Shown in pieces: positions 2,552 through 51,697 of a stretch of DNA of 64,000 bases (position 1 is its first letter; every line of letters begins with the position of its first letter). The DNA is from Verrucomicrobiaceae bacterium (GTDB lineage Bacteria > Verrucomicrobiota > Verrucomicrobiia > Verrucomicrobiales > Verrucomicrobiaceae): positions 186,001 to 250,000 of the forward strand of contig JABTUN010000002.1 in NCBI GenBank assembly GCA_015075365.1, written 5' to 3'. Made by a program: the position numbers and the translations under genes. The notes beneath the pieces are model-generated. The model saw only the letters and a list, made by a program, of their open reading frames with translations, searched no databases and was not told where the DNA came from.

Positions 2552-4744
2552 TCATTGAAACCAGCGCTTCACACGGCCCCAGAAGCCTCCCCCCTGCGGC
2601 GCGGGGCGGGGTTGGGGCTGCGCGACACGCGGCATGGCACCGCGATGCTCCAGGCAGAAATCCTGCGGCAGCACCTCATAGGGCAGCGTGTCCTCATAGG
2701 CCATGCCGGCGTGGTGGCAGCCATCCGTGGCGAGCTGGCTGCTCAGGCGGCAGAGCGAGACACGGCTGAGCGGCAGTCCTGCCATGGGCACCTCGCTCTT
2801 GTAGCCGAGTTTTACCGCCTCCTTCATCACATCCGCCCAGATGGGCAGCGAGAGCCGTCCTCCGTATCCTTCGTCGATGATCGTCTGCGGCCGGTCGAGG
2901 CCGACCCATACGCCGCAGGTGAGGCGCTCCGTGTATCCGGCGAACCACGCGTCCTTGTAATCATTCGTCGTGCCCGTCTTGCCGCCGCCGGGCTCCTTGA
3001 AACCATGCTCCCCGCGCACGGCGGCGGCTGTGCCGCGCTCCATGACCTGCGCCAGGATGCCGCGCATCACATGGGCCACGCCGGGATTGACCACCTCGCC
3101 GTCGAGCACCGGGGTCTGGTAGATCGTGGCACCGGTCTTGTCGATGATGCGGTCGATCAGGAAGGGGCGGCGGCGCACACCCCCGTTCGGAAACACGCTC
3201 ATGGCGCTGGCGAGCTGCCGCACATTGCCGCCGATGTTGCCGATGAAGATCTGCGGCGTGCGCTCCTTCGGCATGTTGAATCCCGCGTCTGCCAGCAGGT
3301 TCAGCACACGGTCGAGCCCGGTGAAATTGCCAAGGCGCACGGTCATGGTGTTGCGACTGAGCACCAGGCCGTCCGTGAGCGTCTTGAGGCCGAGAAACTT
3401 CCCGTCGCTGTTCTGCGGGCTCCAGCCGAGCGCCGCCCCTTGGATTTCATGGGGCTGGATCGGCGCGTCGTCGATCAAGGTGCCGGGGAGGAAACCGGCG
3501 GCCACCCCCGCGGCATAGACAAAGGGCTTCACCGTCGATCCGATCTGCCGCTCCCCCTGGATGGCGCGGTTGTACTTGCTGTGGCGGTAGTCACGCCCGC
3601 CGACGATGGCCAGGATGCCGCCGGTCTGGTTGTCCAGCAGCGTCAGCGCGGCCTGGAGATACGGCGTGGTGCTGATCTCCACCGAGCCGTCCCAGGTCTT
3701 GTCAAAATCAGCCTTCCTGGGATGCTGGTAGGCCTTCAGCTTTTCCACCGCGGCCAGACGCTTTTCCACCGAGGCCTCCGCGGCGAGCTGGATGTCCTTG
3801 TTGATCGTGGTGAACACCTGCAGACCGCCGTCCTCGATGTCCTGCTGCTCCAGAATGAGATCCAGGTCGTGGCGCACCATGTCCAGCGCGTAGCCGCCCT
3901 GGCTCTGAAACGCCGGCTGCGCGTGCAGCGCGATGTCCGCGTAGCGCGCCTCCAGCTCCTCCTCCGCCGTGATCACCTTCGTCGTCAGCATGCGCTGGAG
4001 CACGTCATTGCGCTCCTTGATCGCGCCGTCGTAATTCCGGAAGGGGGAGAAGCGCACCGGGCTGCGCACGATGCCCGCGATCAGCGCGGCCTCGCTGAGA
4101 TTCAGCTGGCTGGCGTGTTTGCCAAAGTACACCTGGCTCGCGCGCTGGATGCCATACAGGCCGGTGCCAAAGAAGATGCGGTTCACATAGTGCTCGATGA
4201 TCTGCTCTTTCGTGCACGCCTTTTCGATGCGGCGCGCCAGCATCATCTCCAGCACCTTGCGGTGCAGATTGCGGTCATCCCCCAGCTCCGGGAAACTGTT
4301 GCGTGCGAGCTGCATTGTCAGCGTGCTGGCCCCCTGCACGATGCGGCCGTCCTTCAGGTTGCGCACCGCGGCGCGTGCCACCCCATGGTAATCAATGCCG
4401 CCGTGGGAGTAAAAGCGCGCGTCCTCGCGCGCCAGCAGCGCCTTGATGAACCAGGGGGAGACCTCGCTCAGCGGCACCACGATGCGGTTTTCCCCGTGCA
4501 TGCGCCCCAGCACCTCGCCCTTGAAGTCATACACCACCGTGCGCTCCGGCATCTGGCCTAGTTGCGTCAGGTCAAAGGCCTTCGCCCACTGGCTGTACAC
4601 GGCGATCACCACCACCATCGCCAGCGTCGTCAGCAGCGTCCCCCCCAGGATGAAAAACAGAGCCAGCCGCCTCCATCGCTGCCAGCGCGACATGACCCGC
4701 GGCTTTTTCACGGGCTTCTTGTCAGGTGCGGTTCTTTTCTTCAT
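2552..4744 (-). CDS. class A penicillin-binding protein (PBP1A family)
   Basis: 730 aa from the ATG at 4744; upstream codons in frame are Pro/Gly-rich and not protein-like. A basic cytoplasmic tail and one membrane segment (LALFFILGGTLLTTLAMVVV) are followed by a GT51 glycosyltransferase domain with EDARFYSHGGIDYHG and QGASTLTMQLARN, then a transpeptidase domain with the SxxK motif (GSTVKPFVYAAG), SRN (LSRNTM) and KTGT (GGKTGTTND). It polymerises and cross-links peptidoglycan in the periplasm. All catalytic motifs look intact and the length is normal. The C-terminal ~60 residues are Pro-rich. It stands alone, not in an obvious operon. Confidence 0.96.
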   Translation of the reverse strand: MKKRTAPDKKPVKKPRVMSRWQRWRRLALFFILGGTLLTTLAMVVVIAVYSQWAKAFDLTQLGQMPERTVVYDFKGEVLGRMHGENRIVVPLSEVSPWFIKALLAREDARFYSHGGIDYHGVARAAVRNLKDGRIVQGASTLTMQLARNSFPELGDDRNLHRKVLEMMLARRIEKACTKEQIIEHYVNRIFFGTGLYGIQRASQVYFGKHASQLNLSEAALIAGIVRSPVRFSPFRNYDGAIKERNDVLQRMLTTKVITAEEELEARYADIALHAQPAFQSQGGYALDMVRHDLDLILEQQDIEDGGLQVFTTINKDIQLAAEASVEKRLAAVEKLKAYQHPRKADFDKTWDGSVEISTTPYLQAALTLLDNQTGGILAIVGGRDYRHSKYNRAIQGERQIGSTVKPFVYAAGVAAGFLPGTLIDDAPIQPHEIQGAALGWSPQNSDGKFLGLKTLTDGLVLSRNTMTVRLGNFTGLDRVLNLLADAGFNMPKERTPQIFIGNIGGNVRQLASAMSVFPNGGVRRRPFLIDRIIDKTGATIYQTPVLDGEVVNPGVAHVMRGILAQVMERGTAAAVRGEHGFKEPGGGKTGTTNDYKDAWFAGYTERLTCGVWVGLDRPQTIIDEGYGGRLSLPIWADVMKEAVKLGYKSEVPMAGLPLSRVSLCRLSSQLATDGCHHAGMAYEDTLPYEVLPQDFCLEHRGAMPRVAQPQPRPAPQGGGFWGRVKRWFQ

Positions 4745-4865
4745 GCGGAGGTTTGGTTCATGATAACGCGCATCCCCGCCGGGGGGCAACCCTCAGACGA
4801 TGAACTCCATGTGAACTTCACCCGGTCCTGGCCATGCCCATATCCCGTGGGGGGCGCGTTGAGCC

Positions 4866-5837
4866 TCAAAAACACCGCCGGCACACCTCCCGCAGGCCCG
4901 CCCGCGTCGTGCAGCGGCGCATGTCATGGAGAAACGTCTCCGCGTCCGCCAGCCCGGGGCCGAAAAAGCCCAGATGCTTCTTGATCCGGTTCACCTGGTC
5001 GAGCTCGCGGGTGCCGGGCAGCGTCACGCAATCATAAAGCTCCTCGACATAGGCCAGCAAATCATCGCGTGACGGCTGGAGGACCGGCCCGCCACGCAAG
5101 TGCTGCCGGATCTGGTCAAACAGCCACGGATTGCGGATCGCGCCCCGCCCGATCATCAGGCCCGCGACGCCCGTCTCCCGCACCACCGCCTCCGCGTCAA
5201 AAGGGGAGCCGATGTTGCCGTTCGCCAGCACCGGGCACTCCAGAGCCGCCCTGGCCGCGCCGATCAAATCGTAGCGCACCCCCGCGCGATACATCTGCGT
5301 CACCGTGCGGCCGTGAATCGTCACCAGATCCACCCCATGCTTCACAAACAACGGCACCAGCGCGTCGATCGTCTCCGTGTCATCAAAGCCCAGCCGCGTC
5401 TTCACCGTGAACTTCACCCGCACCGCCTCGCGTAGCGCGCCCAGGATGCCCTCGATGCGCGGCACATCCCGCAGCAGGCCGCCGCCGGCGCACTTGCGAT
5501 ACACCACCGGCGCCGGGCATCCCAGGTTCAGGTCGATCGCCGCCACCGCATGCTCCTGCAGTTCCCTGGCCCCGCGCACCAGGGACGGGATGTCATTGCC
5601 GATCATCTGCGCCACCACCGGCCTGCCCGTGGGGTTGTCGATGACGGAATCGAGGATCCACTTCTCCAGATGGGAGTCCGGGTGGACGCGAAAATACTCC
5701 GTGTAATACACATCCGCCCCGCCATGGCGCGCCATCAGCCTCCAAAACTCCCGGTCCGTCACATCCTGCATCGGTGCCAGCGCCAGGAGAGGCTCCTGGC
5801 GTCCCAAAAGCTGCTCAAACTGCTCCACCGGACTCAT
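4866..5837 (-). CDS. dus: tRNA-dihydrouridine synthase
   Basis: 323 aa. This FMN enzyme reduces uridine to dihydrouridine in the D-loop of tRNA. The TIM-barrel N-terminus LALAPMQDVTDREFW, the DLNLGCPAP motif, the catalytic Cys in RKCAGGGLL, the phosphate-binding VKTRLGFDD strand, TIHGRTVTQMY, ANGNIGS and GLMIGRGAIRNPWLF are all in order. Length matches the family. It is transcribed convergently with nothing close by. Which Dus subfamily it belongs to (DusA, B or C) cannot be decided here. Confidence 0.94.
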   Translation of the reverse strand: MSPVEQFEQLLGRQEPLLALAPMQDVTDREFWRLMARHGGADVYYTEYFRVHPDSHLEKWILDSVIDNPTGRPVVAQMIGNDIPSLVRGARELQEHAVAAIDLNLGCPAPVVYRKCAGGGLLRDVPRIEGILGALREAVRVKFTVKTRLGFDDTETIDALVPLFVKHGVDLVTIHGRTVTQMYRAGVRYDLIGAARAALECPVLANGNIGSPFDAEAVVRETGVAGLMIGRGAIRNPWLFDQIRQHLRGGPVLQPSRDDLLAYVEELYDCVTLPGTRELDQVNRIKKHLGFFGPGLADAETFLHDMRRCTTRAGLREVCRRCF

Positions 5838-44158: not shown

Positions 44159-44992
44159 TCACGGCGTCGGAGGCATGCCTGGAATCCCCGGCTCGTGATG
44201 GCCAGCCGGCACCGGCACCACCGGTGGCGTGACCACATTGGAAGTCGTGTTGTTGCTCAGGCCAATGGTGACTCCCGGGTTTTGCAGGACGACATTGCCG
44301 CCCAGCAAATCGCCACTGGTGATGAGCTGCTGCTGCATCTGCATGGCGTTTTGGATTTGCTGCTGGTTGGGCTGGGCTGGGTCATTGGCGCTGATGAGTC
44401 GCGAGCTCTGGAGCAGCCTGCCGAGGTCGATGTTCTGGGGGGCTGGGATTGAGCCGGCACCATCCTGCATGGTGATCATCTGGCCTGCACGCAGGGTTTG
44501 GAACTCGCCACGGTCGCGGTTCAGGGTCAGCACGCACTCGCCCTCGATGACGATGAGCTTCACCACGCCGCCGGGATGGTATTCAATGAGCACGGTGGTG
44601 CCGGTCACGGCGGCGGTGACGCCTGCGGTGCGGATCTGCGCCCCGCCCTGCCGTTTCGGCACCTGGACCATCATGACACCACGGTCGAGGTCCAGCGTAC
44701 GGGAGCCTCCGCGCAACGTGAAGCGCGAATTGGCCCCCAGACGCGTCAGCGTGCGGTCCGGGAAACGCAGCTCGGCCCGTGATCCGGCCCCGGTGGCCAC
44801 GGAGGTCACCGGCTTGATCTGCTGGCCTTCGGACGCCTTGCGCGGCGCGGCATCGGCCTTCAGAACCTTCACCTCTTGATGCACCTTGGTGATTTCCGCC
44901 TGGTCAAAGTCCGCGGCGATCGTTGAAGCAGGAGAGCCGGCCAGACAGGCGGAAACCAGGAGCGGAATTAAGAAACAAGGATGCTTTTTCAT
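44159..44992 (-). CDS. FecR-domain exported protein
   Basis: 277 aa with a signal peptide (MKKHPCFLIPLLVSACLAGS, cleavage near TIAA). The FecR core is recognisable: TGAGSRAELRFPDRTLTRLGANSRFTL, DRGVMMVQVPKR and AAVTGTTVLIEYHPGG then LIVIEGECVLTLN. The last ~90 residues are a Gln-rich and Pro-rich tail. Stand-alone periplasmic FecR proteins of this kind are often next to CHASE2 cyclases and outer-membrane barrels, as here. No cognate ECF sigma factor is nearby. Confidence 0.88.
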   Translation of the reverse strand: MKKHPCFLIPLLVSACLAGSPASTIAADFDQAEITKVHQEVKVLKADAAPRKASEGQQIKPVTSVATGAGSRAELRFPDRTLTRLGANSRFTLRGGSRTLDLDRGVMMVQVPKRQGGAQIRTAGVTAAVTGTTVLIEYHPGGVVKLIVIEGECVLTLNRDRGEFQTLRAGQMITMQDGAGSIPAPQNIDLGRLLQSSRLISANDPAQPNQQQIQNAMQMQQQLITSGDLLGGNVVLQNPGVTIGLSNNTTSNVVTPPVVPVPAGHHEPGIPGMPPTP

Positions 44993-45024: not shown

Positions 45025-45996
45025 TTAAAACCGGATCTTGGCGGCCAGACTGATTCCGCCGAGCTGTGTCTGGTAATCAAAGAAGCTGTTGTTGCTGCTG
45101 TTCACCGCGAAGTAGTAGCCAAGGCTGATCTCGAAGTTGTCCGACGGCAGGTAATTGAGCGAGACGCCCATGTTCTGATACCAGTCCTCGCGTCCTTGGA
45201 AGTTGAAGTAGTCAAAATAGGACAGGCGGTACACGGTCGAGAGGTGCAGCTGGGAGGTCAGCTTGAGGTTGTAGGCGAGTTGCAGCGCGTATTCGTGCCG
45301 TTGCAGGATGTCCGGCGAGGTGCCGGTGGCGAAAGAGGTCAAAACCCCGGCCGCGATGCTGTTCCGATGGTCGATGAGGAAGGTCTTCTGCAATCCAAGC
45401 CGGATCAGATGCGCCTCGTAGAGTTCCTCATGGTCGATACCGTCTGTGATCCGCTGGTAGCCGTAATGGAGGGAGAGAATCGCGTTCCGCAGTTCCGGGA
45501 GCACCGCCAGCACTCCCAAACGAATCTCACCAAGGTCATAATTGAGCCGCGTGTCCTCGTCGTAGCGATACCAGTGCTGGCCCGCGTAGGCGTCGGCATA
45601 AAAGCGACCTCCAAGCGGCTGCTGCCAGGCCAGGTTCAGCCCGCCCACATAGAACCAGTCCTCCGTCTTCACACCACCGATGTTATAGGCGTTGTCTGTC
45701 CAGAAAAGGCTGCTGTCCAGCCAGGCGGTGAATGCCTTCCGGCGCTCCGTGCTGGAGAGAATGACCTGGTCACCCAGATCGGCGTCTCCGGGAGATTCCG
45801 GTGCCGTGGTCTCCTCTTTTTCGAGTCCGGGAAAGTTCGTGCTCTTTTTGGTGAACAACGACGAACCGATGCCTGCCTGCGTCGTGGCATCCGCCGCGCG
45901 AGAGGGGTCGTTCAGGGTCTGGCCGGAAGCGGACGCGGCGCAGATGGCGGCAAGCGTGATCAAGACAAGACGGGGTAAGTGAAGGCATCGACTCAT
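45025..45996 (-). CDS. outer-membrane beta-barrel protein
   Basis: 323 aa from the ATG at 45996, which begins a signal peptide (LPRLVLITLAAICAASASGQ). The mature part has alternating polar/aromatic strands (FYADAYAGQHWYRYDEDTRLN, AILSLHYGYQRI, LHLSTVYRLSYFDYFNF) and ends in a typical barrel strand with terminal Phe (GGISLAAKIRF). Probably a 12-16-stranded porin-like or scaffold protein. It lies directly upstream of the FecR gene on the same strand and is divergent from the MCE operon. Confidence 0.85.
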   Translation of the reverse strand: MSRCLHLPRLVLITLAAICAASASGQTLNDPSRAADATTQAGIGSSLFTKKSTNFPGLEKEETTAPESPGDADLGDQVILSSTERRKAFTAWLDSSLFWTDNAYNIGGVKTEDWFYVGGLNLAWQQPLGGRFYADAYAGQHWYRYDEDTRLNYDLGEIRLGVLAVLPELRNAILSLHYGYQRITDGIDHEELYEAHLIRLGLQKTFLIDHRNSIAAGVLTSFATGTSPDILQRHEYALQLAYNLKLTSQLHLSTVYRLSYFDYFNFQGREDWYQNMGVSLNYLPSDNFEISLGYYFAVNSSNNSFFDYQTQLGGISLAAKIRF

Positions 45997-46168
45997 GTGT
46001 GAGAGAGGAACTTGGATGCGGACAAAAGGGAGAACACGAGTGACATGGCAATGGGTTTGACCGGTCCGATTTTGCGCTTCCGGCCCCACCCGGACAAGTT
46101 CAGCCCAAGGACTGCCATTATCAGCATATCCATGCTCTTGGAAGAGCGTTATTGATAGGCCAGTCCCG

Positions 46169-46930
46169 ATGCGCGCCTCCCACACCCATGTCCTGGGATC
46201 CATATCCTCCTTTTTCCGGCTGACGGCCGGGATCGTGGTGCATGCAATCACCCATCTGGACGCCCTGCGCCGCCGGCCGGTCATGGCGGTGACCTACAAG
46301 CAGGTGTACTTCACCGGCATCCAGGCGCTGCTTCCAGCGGCTTTCGCAGCCGTCGCGATCGGCTTCATCATGGAGACGCAGATGCGCGGCCTCCTGGGCA
46401 GCGGCATCGAGCTGAATGTCAAAATGCTCAAACTAGTGGTGCTGCGGGAGTTTGCGCCGCTGTTCACCGCCTTCATCGTGCTCGGGCGCAGCGGCGCGGC
46501 CATCGCCAGCGAGCTTGCGGCGATGAAGGTGCAGGGCGAAATTCGAAGCCTCTACCTCATGGGCATTGATCCTGGCGAGTATCTGCTCGTGCCGCGTGTT
46601 GTGGGGTGCGCGGTGGCCGTTCCGGTGCTCACGTTCTATTTTCAGGCCATCGTGGCAGGCATGGGGCCGGCCTTGGCCTCCGTGTTTGTCGAGATCGACC
46701 TCGGCCCCTACTACCAGGCCTTGTTCGCGTCCATCACGCTTCAGGAATTGCTCGTATCCGCGGCCAAAAGCATCTGCTTCGGCCTCGTGATCGCCGCCGC
46801 AGCGTGTTCCAGCGGCATTTATGTGCCGCCAAGTCGCATCTGGATCCCGCAGGCCGCGGAACTGGCCGTCATACGCGGATTCCTGCTGCTGCTGGCGACG
46901 GACGCCGTTTTCGCCCTTCTCACCCTCTGA
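46169..46930 (+). CDS. mlaE: MlaE-type ABC permease
   Basis: 253 aa. Typical MlaE sequence: YKQVYFTGIQALLPAAFAAVAIG, LVVLREFAPLFTAFIVLGRSGAAIASELAAMKVQGEI and ALYLMGIDP-type loop (SLYLMGIDPGEYLLVPRVVG), then three more hydrophobic helices. It is the membrane part of a lipid transporter that moves phospholipid between the membranes with the MCE protein. Three bases separate its stop from the next gene. Confidence 0.93.
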   Translation: MRASHTHVLGSISSFFRLTAGIVVHAITHLDALRRRPVMAVTYKQVYFTGIQALLPAAFAAVAIGFIMETQMRGLLGSGIELNVKMLKLVVLREFAPLFTAFIVLGRSGAAIASELAAMKVQGEIRSLYLMGIDPGEYLLVPRVVGCAVAVPVLTFYFQAIVAGMGPALASVFVEIDLGPYYQALFASITLQELLVSAAKSICFGLVIAAAACSSGIYVPPSRIWIPQAAELAVIRGFLLLLATDAVFALLTL

Positions 46931-46933
46931 CCC

Positions 46934-47611
46934 ATGCCCGAAGTCATCGCCAGCATCGATCAGATAAGCACGGAGTCATTCCGCAGCGCCACCATGCGCC
47001 TCGAGGCAGGCACTTTAGGCATCGTGGTCACCTCCAGCATCGACCAGGGCCGCGACTTTGTGGACACGCTGCTGGGGCTGGCCGCGCCGGAGCAGGGTGT
47101 GGTGCGGCTGCTGGGACAGCCGCTTTATGAGCTGCCTGAGAGCCGCCGCCTCGCGCTGCTGGCGCAGGTGGGGCATGCTGGTGGCGGCCTCATCAGCAAT
47201 CTCAAGATTTGGGAGAATGTGTCCCTGCCCGCGCTGTTCCACCCGACAAGCACGCCGGACGAGGTGGAGGCACGCCTCATCGAAGCCATCGGGCAGCTTC
47301 CTAACAAGGAGGAATGGATGCAGAAGCGGCTCCCCGCCCTGCCTGACACCCTGAGCAGATACGCCCAGCGCATGGCAGGCCTGATCCGCTGCGCCGCCCT
47401 GCGCCCACGCCTGCTCGTGGCCGAATTTCTGCTCGATGACCTCGAAGGAGAGGCCATCGGACGGCTTGTGGACATGCTGGCGTGGCTGCGAAGAAAAGAA
47501 CCGCCGCCTGCCGTGCTGCTGCTGCACCTCGGCGCAGCCACCGCGGGGCATTCGACATTGCAAAGCCTGCAGCCGGACTGGATGATTCAACTGGAGAAAC
47601 CCACGCCATGA
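46934..47611 (+). CDS. MlaF-like ABC ATPase homologue without Walker A
   Basis: 225 aa. Position and general layout match the ATPase of an Mla transporter: a strand-loop start, a Q-loop region (LLAQVGHAGGGLISNLKIWENV, as LVGFVFQxGALFDSLTVxENV in MlaF), a signature-like LSRYAQRMAGLIRCAAL and a Walker-B-like LLVAEFLLDDLE. The Walker A lysine loop is absent; the place reads VVTSSIDQGRDFVD. The signature lacks SGG and Walker B lacks the D-E pair. It is therefore probably unable to hydrolyse ATP, or acts with another ATPase. Confidence 0.8.
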   Translation: MPEVIASIDQISTESFRSATMRLEAGTLGIVVTSSIDQGRDFVDTLLGLAAPEQGVVRLLGQPLYELPESRRLALLAQVGHAGGGLISNLKIWENVSLPALFHPTSTPDEVEARLIEAIGQLPNKEEWMQKRLPALPDTLSRYAQRMAGLIRCAALRPRLLVAEFLLDDLEGEAIGRLVDMLAWLRRKEPPPAVLLLHLGAATAGHSTLQSLQPDWMIQLEKPTP

Positions 47612-48564
47612 AGTTTCTGCGCAACACCGATCCCCGCTTTCATCTCGTCGAAACACGGGCTCGTTTCTTCATTTTCGTAGCGGTAGCCGGCTTCATCGGC
47701 CTGGTGGTGTTCGTGGTATGGAAGCAGGAGGTGTTCCGCTCCTCGCGCGTCATTCATCTGATTGCGGGCAGCAGCCAGGGCATCCAGAAGGGCATGGCGG
47801 CGCGCCTCAGTGGTTTCCGCATCGGAAAGGTCGGTGATGTCGAGCTGGAGGGGGAAAACCGCGTCCGCGTCACCCTTGAGGTGTTCAGCGAGTATGCCCA
47901 TTTCCTGCGCGCCGATTCCAAGGCCACGATCGCCAGTGAAAGCCTCATCGGCGACCGGTTCATCGACATCACCGCGGGTAGCGCGGGCTCGGCGGAGCTC
48001 AAGGAAGGTGTCACGCTGCCGCTGGCACCCGAAAAGTCGATCAGCACGCTCATGGAGAGCCTCAAGGACGAAATCCGGCCGGCCGTGATCGACACGCGCG
48101 AAATCATCGCCTTCCTCAACGATCCGAAAGGTGACTTCAAAACAACGCTGACCAATCTGCGTGTCACCTCCGACGCCATGAAGACGGAGATGCCGCGAAT
48201 CATGAAGGACGCGCAGGTGACCGTGCATCAAGGGACCGAGCTGTTCACCCAGCTCAACAAACGTGATGCCGAGTTATGGAACTCGCTTGCCAACTTCGAG
48301 CAGTTCTCCAAGCGCTTGAGCGATGACCTCGCGCCGGTCATCACCAAGCTCACGGACGCCATCAGCACCATCCAGGCCGCCGCGTCCAAACTCGACCGCT
48401 CCTTCGCGGAGGCAGGACCGGAGCTGCCGCGCCTCCTGCGCAAGGGCACGGACACGCTGCGCAGCGCCGATGAAGTGCTCACCTCGATCAAAGGACTGTG
48501 GCCGGTGAGCCAGGGCGTGCCCAAGAAGAAAGAAAATCTCCTCCGCCTGCCGAATGAGCCGTGA
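47608..48564 (+). CDS. mlaD: MlaD/MCE-domain lipid transport protein
   Basis: 318 aa from the ATG at 47608, overlapping the upstream stop by 4 bp (ATGA). One N-terminal membrane segment (FFIFVAVAGFIGLVVFVVW) is followed by the MCE domain (GSSQGIQKGMAARLSGFRIGKV, VTLEVFSEYAHFLRADSKATI, GDRFIDITAG). The C-terminal ~180 residues are long helices, as in MCE proteins that build a periplasmic tube or needle. It binds lipids in the periplasm and docks on MlaE. Confidence 0.92.
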   Translation: MKFLRNTDPRFHLVETRARFFIFVAVAGFIGLVVFVVWKQEVFRSSRVIHLIAGSSQGIQKGMAARLSGFRIGKVGDVELEGENRVRVTLEVFSEYAHFLRADSKATIASESLIGDRFIDITAGSAGSAELKEGVTLPLAPEKSISTLMESLKDEIRPAVIDTREIIAFLNDPKGDFKTTLTNLRVTSDAMKTEMPRIMKDAQVTVHQGTELFTQLNKRDAELWNSLANFEQFSKRLSDDLAPVITKLTDAISTIQAAASKLDRSFAEAGPELPRLLRKGTDTLRSADEVLTSIKGLWPVSQGVPKKKENLLRLPNEP

Positions 48565-49414
48565 TTTCCCCGCCATTTCCACCCTGTTGCTGGGTGCCCT
48601 CGCCCTCGGCGGCATCACGGGCTGCTACTCGCCCGCCAAACCGCTGCCACCGGCGCTCAACGAGGCGGTGTCCTGGTCTGCGGAGGCAGAAGAGGCCTTC
48701 CGGGCAGGCCGCCATGCCGCCGCGCAGCAAGGCTACAAAAACGCGCTCGATCTGCACATCGCCGCGGGCAACACTCCCGGCATCGTCCGCAATCTCGTCA
48801 ACCTTGCCGTCGTGCAGCACACCGCCGGGCAAAACGCGGCCGCGCGGCAGAGCCTCGCCGCGCTCGAACGGCATCGGGCGGCGAATCCCTCCTCCGCACG
48901 GCTGGATGCCGAAACATACGCCCTGCTGGCCGAGGCCGGATGGCTGCAAGCCCACATGTGCATCGACGAAGGCCGCCTCGCCGATGCACAGGGGGAAATC
49001 GACCGCTTGGGCAGCCCCTCAGGCAGCGCACGCCTGCTGAACTTGCGCGCGCGCCTCCTTTTGGCGCAAAAACAGCCCGGCGAGGCGCTTTCCACCGCGC
49101 GCAAGGCCTGGGGCACGGCCAGAGGGGACGTACTGGAACAAGCGGATGCTGCGCGGTATCAAGCACGCGCCCTGGAACAGCTCGGCCAGGCATCCGAAGC
49201 CGCGCGTTGGTATCAAACCGCCGTCCCCCTCGATCAAAACGCCTCCCGCAGCCACCTCGTGGCCGATGACTGGCTGGGACTGGCACGCACGGCACAAAAC
49301 ACCGGCTCCAAGGAACAATCGCGTCATTTCGCCCGACTTGCCCTGGACGCGGCCAGACGCGCCAACGACGCCTCCCGCCAGCAACAGGCTCAGAGGCTTC
49401 TCCGCGCCCCTTGA
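48554..49414 (+). CDS. TPR lipoprotein
   Basis: 286 aa. The N-terminus MSRDFPAISTLLLGALALGG then ITGC is a lipoprotein signal with a lipobox Cys. Residues ~45-280 are TPR-like helical repeats (AEEAFRAGRHAAAQQGYKNAL, NLVNLAVVQHTAGQNAAARQSL, GLARTAQNTGSKEQSRHFARLAL). It overlaps mlaD by 11 bp and precedes the cyclase gene by 16 bp. It corresponds in place to the lipoprotein partner of MCE systems, although most of those are not TPR proteins. Confidence 0.85.
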   Translation: MSRDFPAISTLLLGALALGGITGCYSPAKPLPPALNEAVSWSAEAEEAFRAGRHAAAQQGYKNALDLHIAAGNTPGIVRNLVNLAVVQHTAGQNAAARQSLAALERHRAANPSSARLDAETYALLAEAGWLQAHMCIDEGRLADAQGEIDRLGSPSGSARLLNLRARLLLAQKQPGEALSTARKAWGTARGDVLEQADAARYQARALEQLGQASEAARWYQTAVPLDQNASRSHLVADDWLGLARTAQNTGSKEQSRHFARLALDAARRANDASRQQQAQRLLRAP

Positions 49415-49430: not shown

Positions 49431-51599
49431 ATGGCCACCGCCGACCATTCCGCGTCTTCCGCGAAAAAATCGCGCTCCGAGGCCTTCGAGGCCCGGTTGG
49501 TGCCCATGCTCGTGCTTTTGGCCGCCGGCTTGCTGGCTTTGCTGCACGCGTGGCCTGCCAGCCGCGGCCTGATTCGGGAGCAGGAGCGCCTTTTGCTCGA
49601 TGGATTTCATCGACAGGGCATCAAAACGCCGGAGCGCTGGGATGTGATGGTTTTAGGCATCGACGACGCCAGCCTCACCTTGGAAGCGGCGTGGCCGGAG
49701 GACATCGCCGCCTCCCCTGCCCTCCAGGCGATGCAGAAACAGTGGCCCTGGCCGCGCCGTGTCTGGGCGCATGTGCTGGACCGTCTTTTTGAAGCGGGTG
49801 CCCGCCAGGTCTTTCTCGACATCACCTTCAAAAGTCCTTCCGAGGATCCCGAGAACGACCGGCTGCTGCGCGAGGCGCTGGAGCGTCATCGTGGGAAAGT
49901 GATCCTTGGTGCCAAGTTTGAGGATTCGCTCATCGGCAATGCCACGGTGACCCAGCTCGTGTCTCCCACCCCTGCCATCACCGGCCCGGAACCTGACCCA
50001 CTGAACACCGGCATCCTCACACTCTGGCCGGACGCGGACGAGCGCATCCGCTCGGTTCAATGGCATGTCACCCCTTCCGAGGCGGAGGCGCTGCAAAGCC
50101 ACCGAGCGGTCGTGACAGACCCGGATGACGCCTCGTATCCTGCCGCGGCGCTCGTGCTGGGACGCAACATGCAGCCGGACATCGTGCACCGCCTGCCGCG
50201 CAGCTCCCGCATTCGATTCTGCGAAGGGTCCGCGTATGCGCCGTTTTCGCTGTTCCAGTTGTTCGTGCCGGAGCTCTGGGAGGCGAATCTCGCCGGCGGA
50301 AAAGTCTTCCGCGACAAAACCATCCTCATCGGCGCCATCGCCAGCGATCTGCAGGATCTGCAGGATACGCCGCTGGGGCACGTGCCGGGTGTGCAGGTGC
50401 ATGCGCACGCTCTCACGGCGCTGCTCGCACGATCCTTCATCCACGAGGCGCCGGAGTGGACGCGCTGGGTGTCCATGCTGGCCGCCGCGCTAAGCGCATG
50501 GGCGATCGTGCGCTGGGTGCGCGTGCCTGCCCTCTGCGTGGGGGCGCTCGTGCTGGCAGGACTCGCCGCGCACGGTCTTTCATGGCTGGCTTTCGAGCAT
50601 GCGGACATCGAGGCTGCCGCGCTGCCCTTCATCCTCGGCATCGCTTTCTGCGGCGGCAGCAGCCTCACCGGCCAGTGGGTGCTGCAACGCCGCGAACGGA
50701 GCAAGCTGCGGCACTTCCTGGCCCGCTACACCTCCCCGGAGCTGGCGCGTGAGATGATGGCGGACCGCGAGGGCCTCTACACCACGCTGGGCGGCGTGGA
50801 GCGGCGTGTGACGATGTTTTTCTCCGACATCCGCGGCTTCACCAGCATCTCGGAGAAGCTGTCTCCCTCCGAGGTCGTCAAGCTGCTCAACGAATACCTC
50901 ACCGGCATGGTCGCCTGCGTGTTCCAGCATCGCGGCCTGGTGGACAAGTTCATCGGTGACGCGGTGATGGCCCTGTGGGGCAGCACGCGGGCGCAACCGG
51001 ACGAGGACGGCTACCGCCAGGACGCCATCGCCGCTGTGGAAACAGCCCTCCACATGCGACGCGTGCTCGCCGAGCAGAACATCGGCTGGCAGGCGCGCGG
51101 CATGTCCCCGCTGCGTATCGGCATGGGCATCCACCAGGGAAATGTCGTCGTCGGCAACATTGGCTCCGCCGATCCCTATGAAAAAATGGACCTCACCGTC
51201 ATCGGCGACTCCGTGAACCTCGCCTCCCGCCTCGAAGGCGTGACCAAGCAGTATGAGATCGACCTCATCATCAGCGAGAGCATCCATCCGCATGTCCACG
51301 AGCGCTTCCTTTGCCGAAGCGTCGATTTGATCGCTGTGAAGGGCAAAGCAAAGCCCGTCGAGATCTTCACCGTGCTCGGTCCGGGGGAGATAGCGGCTCC
51401 GGCCGGACTCGCCGCGTTCGAGACCGGCATGGTGCATTACCGCGACGGACGCTTCACGGAGGCCGCTGGCGCCTTCCAGCAGGCCTGCGACCTCGGCCTG
51501 AACGACAAGCTGACGCAGGTGTTCGTGACGCGCTGCGCGCAGCTCGTGCAAACGCCACCGGAAAGCTGGAACGGGGTGTTTGTCATGACGACGAAGTGA
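49431..51599 (+). CDS. CHASE2-domain adenylate/guanylate cyclase
   Basis: 722 aa from the ATG at 49431. One N-terminal membrane segment, a periplasmic CHASE2 sensor (~50-340; VMVLGIDDASLTLEAAWPED, RRVWAHVLDRLFEAGARQVFLDITF, HVPGVQVHAHALTALL), three C-terminal membrane helices (~350-420) and a class III cyclase domain (~460-650). Metal-binding Asp residues lie in FFSDIRGFTS and the GDAVMALWG loop; the DPYEKMDLTVIGDSVNLASRLEG segment supplies base- and transition-state contacts. It ends in a short TPR-like unit. It likely makes cAMP in response to an envelope signal, and its place after the MCE operon ties it to outer-membrane state. Confidence 0.93.
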   Translation: MATADHSASSAKKSRSEAFEARLVPMLVLLAAGLLALLHAWPASRGLIREQERLLLDGFHRQGIKTPERWDVMVLGIDDASLTLEAAWPEDIAASPALQAMQKQWPWPRRVWAHVLDRLFEAGARQVFLDITFKSPSEDPENDRLLREALERHRGKVILGAKFEDSLIGNATVTQLVSPTPAITGPEPDPLNTGILTLWPDADERIRSVQWHVTPSEAEALQSHRAVVTDPDDASYPAAALVLGRNMQPDIVHRLPRSSRIRFCEGSAYAPFSLFQLFVPELWEANLAGGKVFRDKTILIGAIASDLQDLQDTPLGHVPGVQVHAHALTALLARSFIHEAPEWTRWVSMLAAALSAWAIVRWVRVPALCVGALVLAGLAAHGLSWLAFEHADIEAAALPFILGIAFCGGSSLTGQWVLQRRERSKLRHFLARYTSPELAREMMADREGLYTTLGGVERRVTMFFSDIRGFTSISEKLSPSEVVKLLNEYLTGMVACVFQHRGLVDKFIGDAVMALWGSTRAQPDEDGYRQDAIAAVETALHMRRVLAEQNIGWQARGMSPLRIGMGIHQGNVVVGNIGSADPYEKMDLTVIGDSVNLASRLEGVTKQYEIDLIISESIHPHVHERFLCRSVDLIAVKGKAKPVEIFTVLGPGEIAAPAGLAAFETGMVHYRDGRFTEAAGAFQQACDLGLNDKLTQVFVTRCAQLVQTPPESWNGVFVMTTK

Positions 51600-51623: not shown

Positions 51624-51697
51624 TGGTTGCCTCACAAGGATTCGAACCTTGAATAACAGATTCAGAATCTGCTGTGTTACCATTACACCATGAGGCA
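51624..51697 (-). tRNA. tRNA-Gln, anticodon CTG
   Basis: Read on the minus strand the acceptor stem TGCCTCA pairs with TGAGGCA, the D-arm is GTGT/ACAC, the anticodon stem GCAGA/TCTGT holds the loop TTCTGAA with anticodon CTG, and the T-arm is CAAGG TTCGAAT CCTTG. The discriminator is A and CCA is encoded (51624-51626 on the plus strand reads TGG). Confidence 0.97.

Follow-up and report, generated by a model that had tools for sequence, protein, structure and literature searches.

The protein encoded in the mlaF position of an MCE operon of a Verrucomicrobiaceae bacterium is a homologue of ABC ATPases in which the nucleotide-binding motifs are degraded, and the same loss is conserved among its relatives. 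We consider the best explanation, with a probability of roughly 0.6, to be that this protein (pseudo-MlaF) is a conserved pseudo-ATPase, a MlaF paralogue that would neither bind nor hydrolyse nucleotide and that has been retained in a distinct MCE lipid transport system as a docking subunit. We give about even odds to the wider interpretation that MlaE, pseudo-MlaF, and a long MlaD constitute a separate, old MCE lineage of Verrucomicrobiota, the Geotalea class, and Gallionellaceae, which may act between the membranes as a lipid conduit that runs without fuel or on some other drive.

Organisation of the pseudo-mlaF operon

The operon lies on the forward strand of the window, by which we mean the whole 64,000-nucleotide stretch of DNA that was analysed. 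Its first gene (46169..46930) encodes a MlaE-type permease of 253 amino acids, which belongs to the permease group paired with pseudo-MlaF and matches PF02405 at 157 bits against a cut-off of 22.5. The gene for pseudo-MlaF (46934..47611; 225 amino acids) starts 3 nt past the mlaE stop codon, and its end overlaps the start of mlaD (47608..48564; 318 amino acids) in ATGA. The MlaD-type product has one MCE domain (PF02470, 53 bits; cut-off 25.1) followed by a long helical tail. An 11-nt overlap joins mlaD to the next gene (48554..49414), which encodes a TPR protein (TPR_12) with the lipobox ITGC; this protein is probably an envelope lipoprotein, and the same gene stands in the same place in relatives. 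The tight spacing described in the original prediction from this DNA is therefore borne out. The accompanying statement that the flanking mlaE and mlaD look intact holds for their family membership but not for the MlaE coupling helix, which is altered (see below).

No match to the STAS (MlaB) or MlaC families was found among the five genes scanned, from mlaE to the cyclase gene described below. MlaEFD systems that lack MlaB and MlaC are known, as a passage of the Veillonella parvula study describes (PMC10665443). The operon also encodes no PqiA/LetA partner and no multiple MCE domains; the permease is of the MlaE type and there is one MCE stretch.

A CHASE2-adenylate cyclase gene (49431..51599, forward strand; PF05226, PF00211) starts 16 nt beyond the TPR gene and, in the window genome, is probably transcribed together with the operon. 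It is outside the conserved gene set, and a scan for promoters and terminators gave results at chance level. Just downstream of the cyclase gene is a tRNA gene on the reverse strand (51627-51697; Rfam 68.7 bits). Upstream of mlaE is a divergent gene (45025-46284, reverse strand) for an outer-membrane-barrel-like protein with a signal peptide, and past it a gene (44159-44992, reverse strand) for a secreted FecR-like protein, both named by eye.

Pseudo-MlaF is an ABC ATPase homologue that has lost its catalytic residues

Pseudo-MlaF matches the Pfam ABC_tran profile weakly (19.5 bits, under the cut-off of 25). Among solved structures in the PDB, phmmer ranked YbbA first (E 1.1e-8) and Pseudomonas aeruginosa MlaF second (E 7e-5). 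A profile comparison by hhalign of six relatives with six intact MlaF-type ATPases gave 99.6% probability and an E value of 4e-24 over 185 columns. Judged by these alignments, pseudo-MlaF is an ABC ATPase by descent. An AlphaFold model built from six alignment rows was poor (pLDDT 49); Foldseek matches to it were mostly ABC ATPases at the top, led by YbbA and LolD, with MlaF appearing from rank 5. The model was set aside as an argument, and docking of the protein is argued below from conservation because of its poor quality.

The hhalign comparison sets residues 33-41 (TSSIDQGRD; 47030..47056) opposite Walker A, in agreement with the original reading of SSIDQGRDF at this site. The ABC signature position (47351..47371) reads LSRYAQR compared to LSGGMxKR, and the Walker B position (47408..47446) reads RLLVAEFLLDDLE compared to hhhhDEPTxGLD, so that both motifs are degraded as predicted. 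We scored eight catalytic positions: the Walker A Lys and Ser/Thr, the Q-loop Gln, the signature Ser and second Gly, the Walker B Asp and Glu, and the H-loop His. At these positions the window protein has Gly and Arg (Walker A), Ala (Q-loop), Ser and Tyr (signature), Glu and Phe (Walker B), and Ala (H-loop). It therefore retains one of the eight residues that define a MlaF ATPase, the signature Ser, and is predicted not to bind ATP.

This loss is shared by the relatives. We aligned 55 group A and 51 group B pseudo-MlaF proteins (groups described below), which were picked by profile score and not by absence of motifs, with 30 intact MlaF-type ATPases. Since the intact set was picked for having Walker A, only the remaining motifs provide an independent comparison. 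All 106 pseudo-MlaF proteins retain 0-3 of the eight residues, compared to eight of eight in 29/30 intact proteins; the exception is a truncated frame, kept in the set, that retains three. Zero, one, two, and three residues are kept in 15, 19, 19, and 2 members of group A and in 27, 17, 6, and 1 members of group B, respectively. The hhalign result and this alignment of 106 plus 30 rows together rule out a misplaced Walker A motif.

Pseudo-MlaF proteins form two groups in at least three lineages

A first search with the pattern NLKIWENV returned five loci in named genomes, those of Geotalea sp. SG265, G. toluenoxydans, a Nitrosomonadales bin, a Gallionellaceae bin, and a Gallionella bin. All five contain genes for MlaE, pseudo-MlaF, MlaD, and the TPR protein in the order found in the window. 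In G. toluenoxydans (locus L071, 5992-6656) the pseudo-MlaF frame is broken and the neighbouring genes for MlaE and the TPR protein look whole; this locus was left out of the residue table. The motif in these five loci is biased because it was the search pattern. The possibility that its conservation is an artefact of that search was rejected, because later samples, drawn from whole genomes by whole-profile score, show the motif anyway.

Close homologues of the window protein (group A; E <= 1e-25 in whole-genome profile searches, query genomes included) are present in 45/277 genomes of the Geotalea class and in 6/399 genomes of the order to which the Gallionellaceae bin belongs. Among 387 Verrucomicrobiota genomes, only that of the window carries a group A member; its gene scores 276 bits with the group A profile, and the next protein, which has a Walker A motif, scores 88 bits. 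Likewise, no other close homologue was found in the 48 genomes of the window's genus that were searched. The close relatives of the window protein thus belong to the Geotalea and Gallionellaceae groups. The more distant group B is common elsewhere in Verrucomicrobiota. Group B was found in 50 of the 387 Verrucomicrobiota genomes at 101 bits or more, the window's own genome included. Scores then drop from 101 to 85 bits, and the two proteins just under this gap have Walker A motifs. The group B member of the window genome is at a second locus (L219; C3:937500-947000, pseudo-MlaF at 4738-5436), reads WLENLDVDENMLLA, and sits between MlaE and a 374-amino-acid MCE-like protein.

From these alignments, loss of the ATP site is ancient and conserved across at least three lineages. 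The original prediction, which is partly supported, therefore framed the locus correctly, and the check that it proposed in related Verrucomicrobia revealed no other close homologue in the genus itself and the more distant group B elsewhere in the phylum.

Pseudo-MlaF is accompanied by one group of MlaE permeases

The usual gene order is MlaE, pseudo-MlaF, long MlaD, and TPR lipoprotein. Among the 56 group A loci, mlaE adjoins the pseudo-MlaF gene in 31 by script and in 32 when L182 is counted, where an over-extended pseudo-MlaF frame hid mlaE; scripted counts of adjacency miss mlaE wherever this frame is over-extended. MlaD is encoded in 55/56 and the TPR protein in 53/56 of these loci. Of the 51 group B loci, 48 have an mlaE gene on the same fragment and 49 a gene for an MCE protein, and the TPR match is weak (17/51 by script). 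A lipobox was detected in 44/53 TPR proteins, a crude count taken on frames untrimmed to start codons, which includes spurious matches and misses some clear lipoboxes.

The 24 group A genomes that lack an adjacent mlaE all carry a MlaE of the pseudo-MlaF group elsewhere, about 3.5 kb downstream in L212 and away from the fetched fragment in the others. These permeases score 286-340 bits, compared to at most 167 bits for other MlaE proteins. The operon is split in these 24 genomes (part of L174-L208), which are mostly of the Geotalea class; the genes for pseudo-MlaF, MlaD, and the TPR protein start alone and the matching mlaE is elsewhere. Several split loci have beside them a divergent gene that by eye resembles indolepyruvate oxidoreductase. 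Over the whole Geotalea class (277 genomes), 51 genomes carry a MlaE of this group, including all 45 that carry pseudo-MlaF. Two of the six additional genomes (L281, L282) have an adjacent pseudo-MlaF that scores under the threshold, and the other four were outside this check.

We constructed a MlaE tree from 76 chosen rows, comprising 58 partners of pseudo-MlaF, 16 permeases with an intact MlaF nearby, and 2 permeases (L249, L250) with no MlaF homologue within 1.5 kb. All 58 partners lie on the same side of a branch supported at 100/100. Within the tree, group B is a single group (100/99) and group A is weakly supported (83/46); the tree carries a long-branch warning, and the window permease is among the long branches. 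The simplest account is that the ATP site was lost once, at the base of the pseudo-MlaF lineage. The permeases of L249 and L250 are of a second MlaE kind (scoring about 165 bits against the group profile) and also have no MCE gene within 1.5 kb.

The segment predicted to face the permease is the best-conserved part of pseudo-MlaF

In ABC ATPases, the stretch after the Q-loop faces the permease. The segment of the window protein that aligns with this stretch, GGLISNLKIWENVSLP (47183..47230), is specific to the family and is a probable docking site for MlaE. The group A consensus after the Q-loop position is mostly GGL[IV]SNLKxWENxxLP, and that of group B is GW[IVL]SNLDxDENxxL; an intact MlaF copy of the window genome reads FQSSALFDSLTVEQNVAFPL at this stretch. 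All 106 pseudo-MlaF proteins have the Asn-Leu pair and the second Asn, and 105/106 have the Glu; of the intact proteins, 1/30 has the Asn of the pair. Conserved positions of this segment correspond to N89, L90, W93, E94, and N95 of the window protein. By alignment, the segment that would face the permease is thus the best-conserved part of pseudo-MlaF.

The permease is altered on its side as well. In MlaFEDB, a coupling helix of MlaE between TM2 and TM3 mediates contact with MlaF, as a passage of PMC7790496 states. This helix reads VQGEI in the window MlaE compared to the canonical [TNS]E[EQ][IV]. The coupling-helix Glu is present in 16/18 canonical MlaE proteins and in none of the 58 partners of pseudo-MlaF, which mostly have Gly there. 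Some further positions are invariant in the partners alone, for example listing position 234, which is Pro in 58/58 partners compared to 0/18 canonical proteins, 17 of which have Gly. A charge-swap covariation between a Lys of pseudo-MlaF and a Glu of MlaE, noticed by eye, was discarded because the pseudo-MlaF position in question is Asp in group B.

A possible mechanism and its relation to known MCE systems

Because the composite ATP site is gone and the conserved side would meet the permease, we read pseudo-MlaF as a docking, shape-keeping subunit at which no ATP would be used. A pseudo-MlaF dimer would dock under the MlaE dimer through the SNLKxWENxxLP segment and would fix the permease in a single functional state. 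Lipid would be conveyed across the periplasm by the MlaD ring and its long helical tail in the direction of the TPR lipoprotein, a candidate outer-membrane partner, and would move passively down its gradient or by a drive other than ATP hydrolysis at pseudo-MlaF. Against this explanation stand the poor model of pseudo-MlaF, its faster evolution than that of MlaD and MlaE, the weak support of group A in the MlaE tree, and the long branch of the window permease.

The closest parallels are Mla (MlaFEDB) of E. coli and MlaEFD of Veillonella parvula, in which MlaE, a MlaF homologue, and MlaD are likewise encoded together (PMC10665443, in part). The window system differs from both in having a MlaF homologue without an ATP site, a changed MlaE coupling helix, and a TPR lipoprotein as a fourth gene. 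V. parvula MlaEFD also shares the long MlaD, a form that accounts for 85% of MlaD homologues and is proposed, in the same part of that study, to act as a transenvelope bridge (PMC10665443). The low-confidence model of the window MlaD (pLDDT 57), which shows a single MCE domain and, from residue 145 to 297, long helices, agrees with this form. Brucella Mpc resembles the window system in its homologues of MlaE, MlaF, and long MlaD and in an outer-membrane lipoprotein, and has been proposed to span the periplasm; as described in a passage of PMC12436622, however, it has a conserved ABC ATPase and a PqiC-like lipoprotein, whereas the window system has the pseudo-ATPase and a TPR lipoprotein. Pqi and Let, described in the same passage, are MCE conduits in which the membrane protein has no ATPase domain, a precedent for ATPase-free MCE systems (PMC12436622). 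They differ from the window system in that PqiA/LetA stands in place of MlaE, each chain has several MCE domains, and there is no MlaF relic. As may also hold for Pqi and Let, the drive of the window system may be independent of ATP.

The direction of lipid movement by Mla-type systems, inward or outward, and the purpose of ATP in them are still debated. Among ABC transporters, TAP and CFTR combine one degenerate ATP site with a second working site. They share with pseudo-MlaF the loss of catalytic residues from a nucleotide-binding domain, but the only MlaF homologue of the window operon has lost both halves of the site. We found no description of a MlaF without an ATP site in the open-licence full-text literature, a scope that excludes bioRxiv preprints and in which articles were mostly judged by title and the start of the abstract. 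A natural lineage with a permease, a ring, and an ABC subunit but no ATP site would permit a direct test of ATP-free lipid carriage by a MlaE-MCE machine. Surveys that call MlaF by synteny could also count pseudo-MlaF proteins as ATPases; the Veillonella survey identified MlaF by profile and synteny and, according to the same portion of that paper, omitted it from the tree for annotation uncertainty (PMC10665443).

Selection on pseudo-MlaF and alternative explanations

In 14 pairs of relatives, dN/dS of pseudo-MlaF is 0.11-0.30 in 12 pairs and saturated in the other two. The corresponding values are 0.04-0.17 for MlaD, 0.18-0.33 for the TPR protein (one pair saturated), and 0.06-0.10 for MlaE in the two pairs that have it. 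Pseudo-MlaF is therefore under purifying selection, less tightly than MlaD and MlaE.

The original prediction offered three options for this operon: independence of ATP, use of another ATPase, or conversion of the protein into a regulator. Independence of ATP, or at least of ATP at pseudo-MlaF, fits best, and a borrowed MlaF fits poorly, because conservation in the protein peaks at the docking segment and the MlaE coupling helix is changed. If a MlaF were borrowed, an intact copy encoded elsewhere would replace or pair with pseudo-MlaF and energise the transporter, as mycobacterial MceG serves as the one ATPase of several MCE systems. A search of the window genome for another MlaF, suggested with the original prediction, did reveal intact MlaF at two additional MCE loci, and one such locus (L220) is present in Geotalea sp. 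SG265. Yet the composite ATP site of ABC transporters needs halves from both subunits, and both halves are gone from pseudo-MlaF, so that neither its homodimer nor a mixed dimer with an intact MlaF would contain a complete site. Moreover, the partner permeases lack the coupling-helix Glu of canonical MlaE, and pseudo-MlaF accompanies this permease group wherever it was checked, which leaves aside the four genomes mentioned above. We therefore consider a borrowed MlaF unlikely.

We also regard as unlikely that pseudo-MlaF is mainly a regulator or signal relay, which would detect the state of MlaE or a partner in the cytoplasm and gate the flow of lipid, and not a structural part of a conduit. 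The cyclase gene that follows the window operon would suit such a role, as would the faster evolution of pseudo-MlaF than of MlaD and MlaE, which might be expected of a sensor surface. However, no such cyclase follows the TPR gene in the frames listed downstream in two relatives (L068 and L070), and the best-conserved segment corresponds to the permease-facing stretch of MlaF and not to a free surface. This interpretation overlaps with that of a docking subunit.

Binding of nucleotide or of another ligand through a changed site is very unlikely. Although a few members keep single catalytic residues (in group A, the Walker A Lys in 7/55 and the Walker B Asp in 12/55), the Walker A Lys is absent from all 51 group B members, and no replacement motif common to both groups is conserved at the lost columns among the 106 members. 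Finally, decay of a remnant mlaF, for which the broken frame in G. toluenoxydans might speak, is refuted for the family by the dN/dS values of pseudo-MlaF, the open frames of all 106 aligned members, and docking residues that are invariant across lineages.
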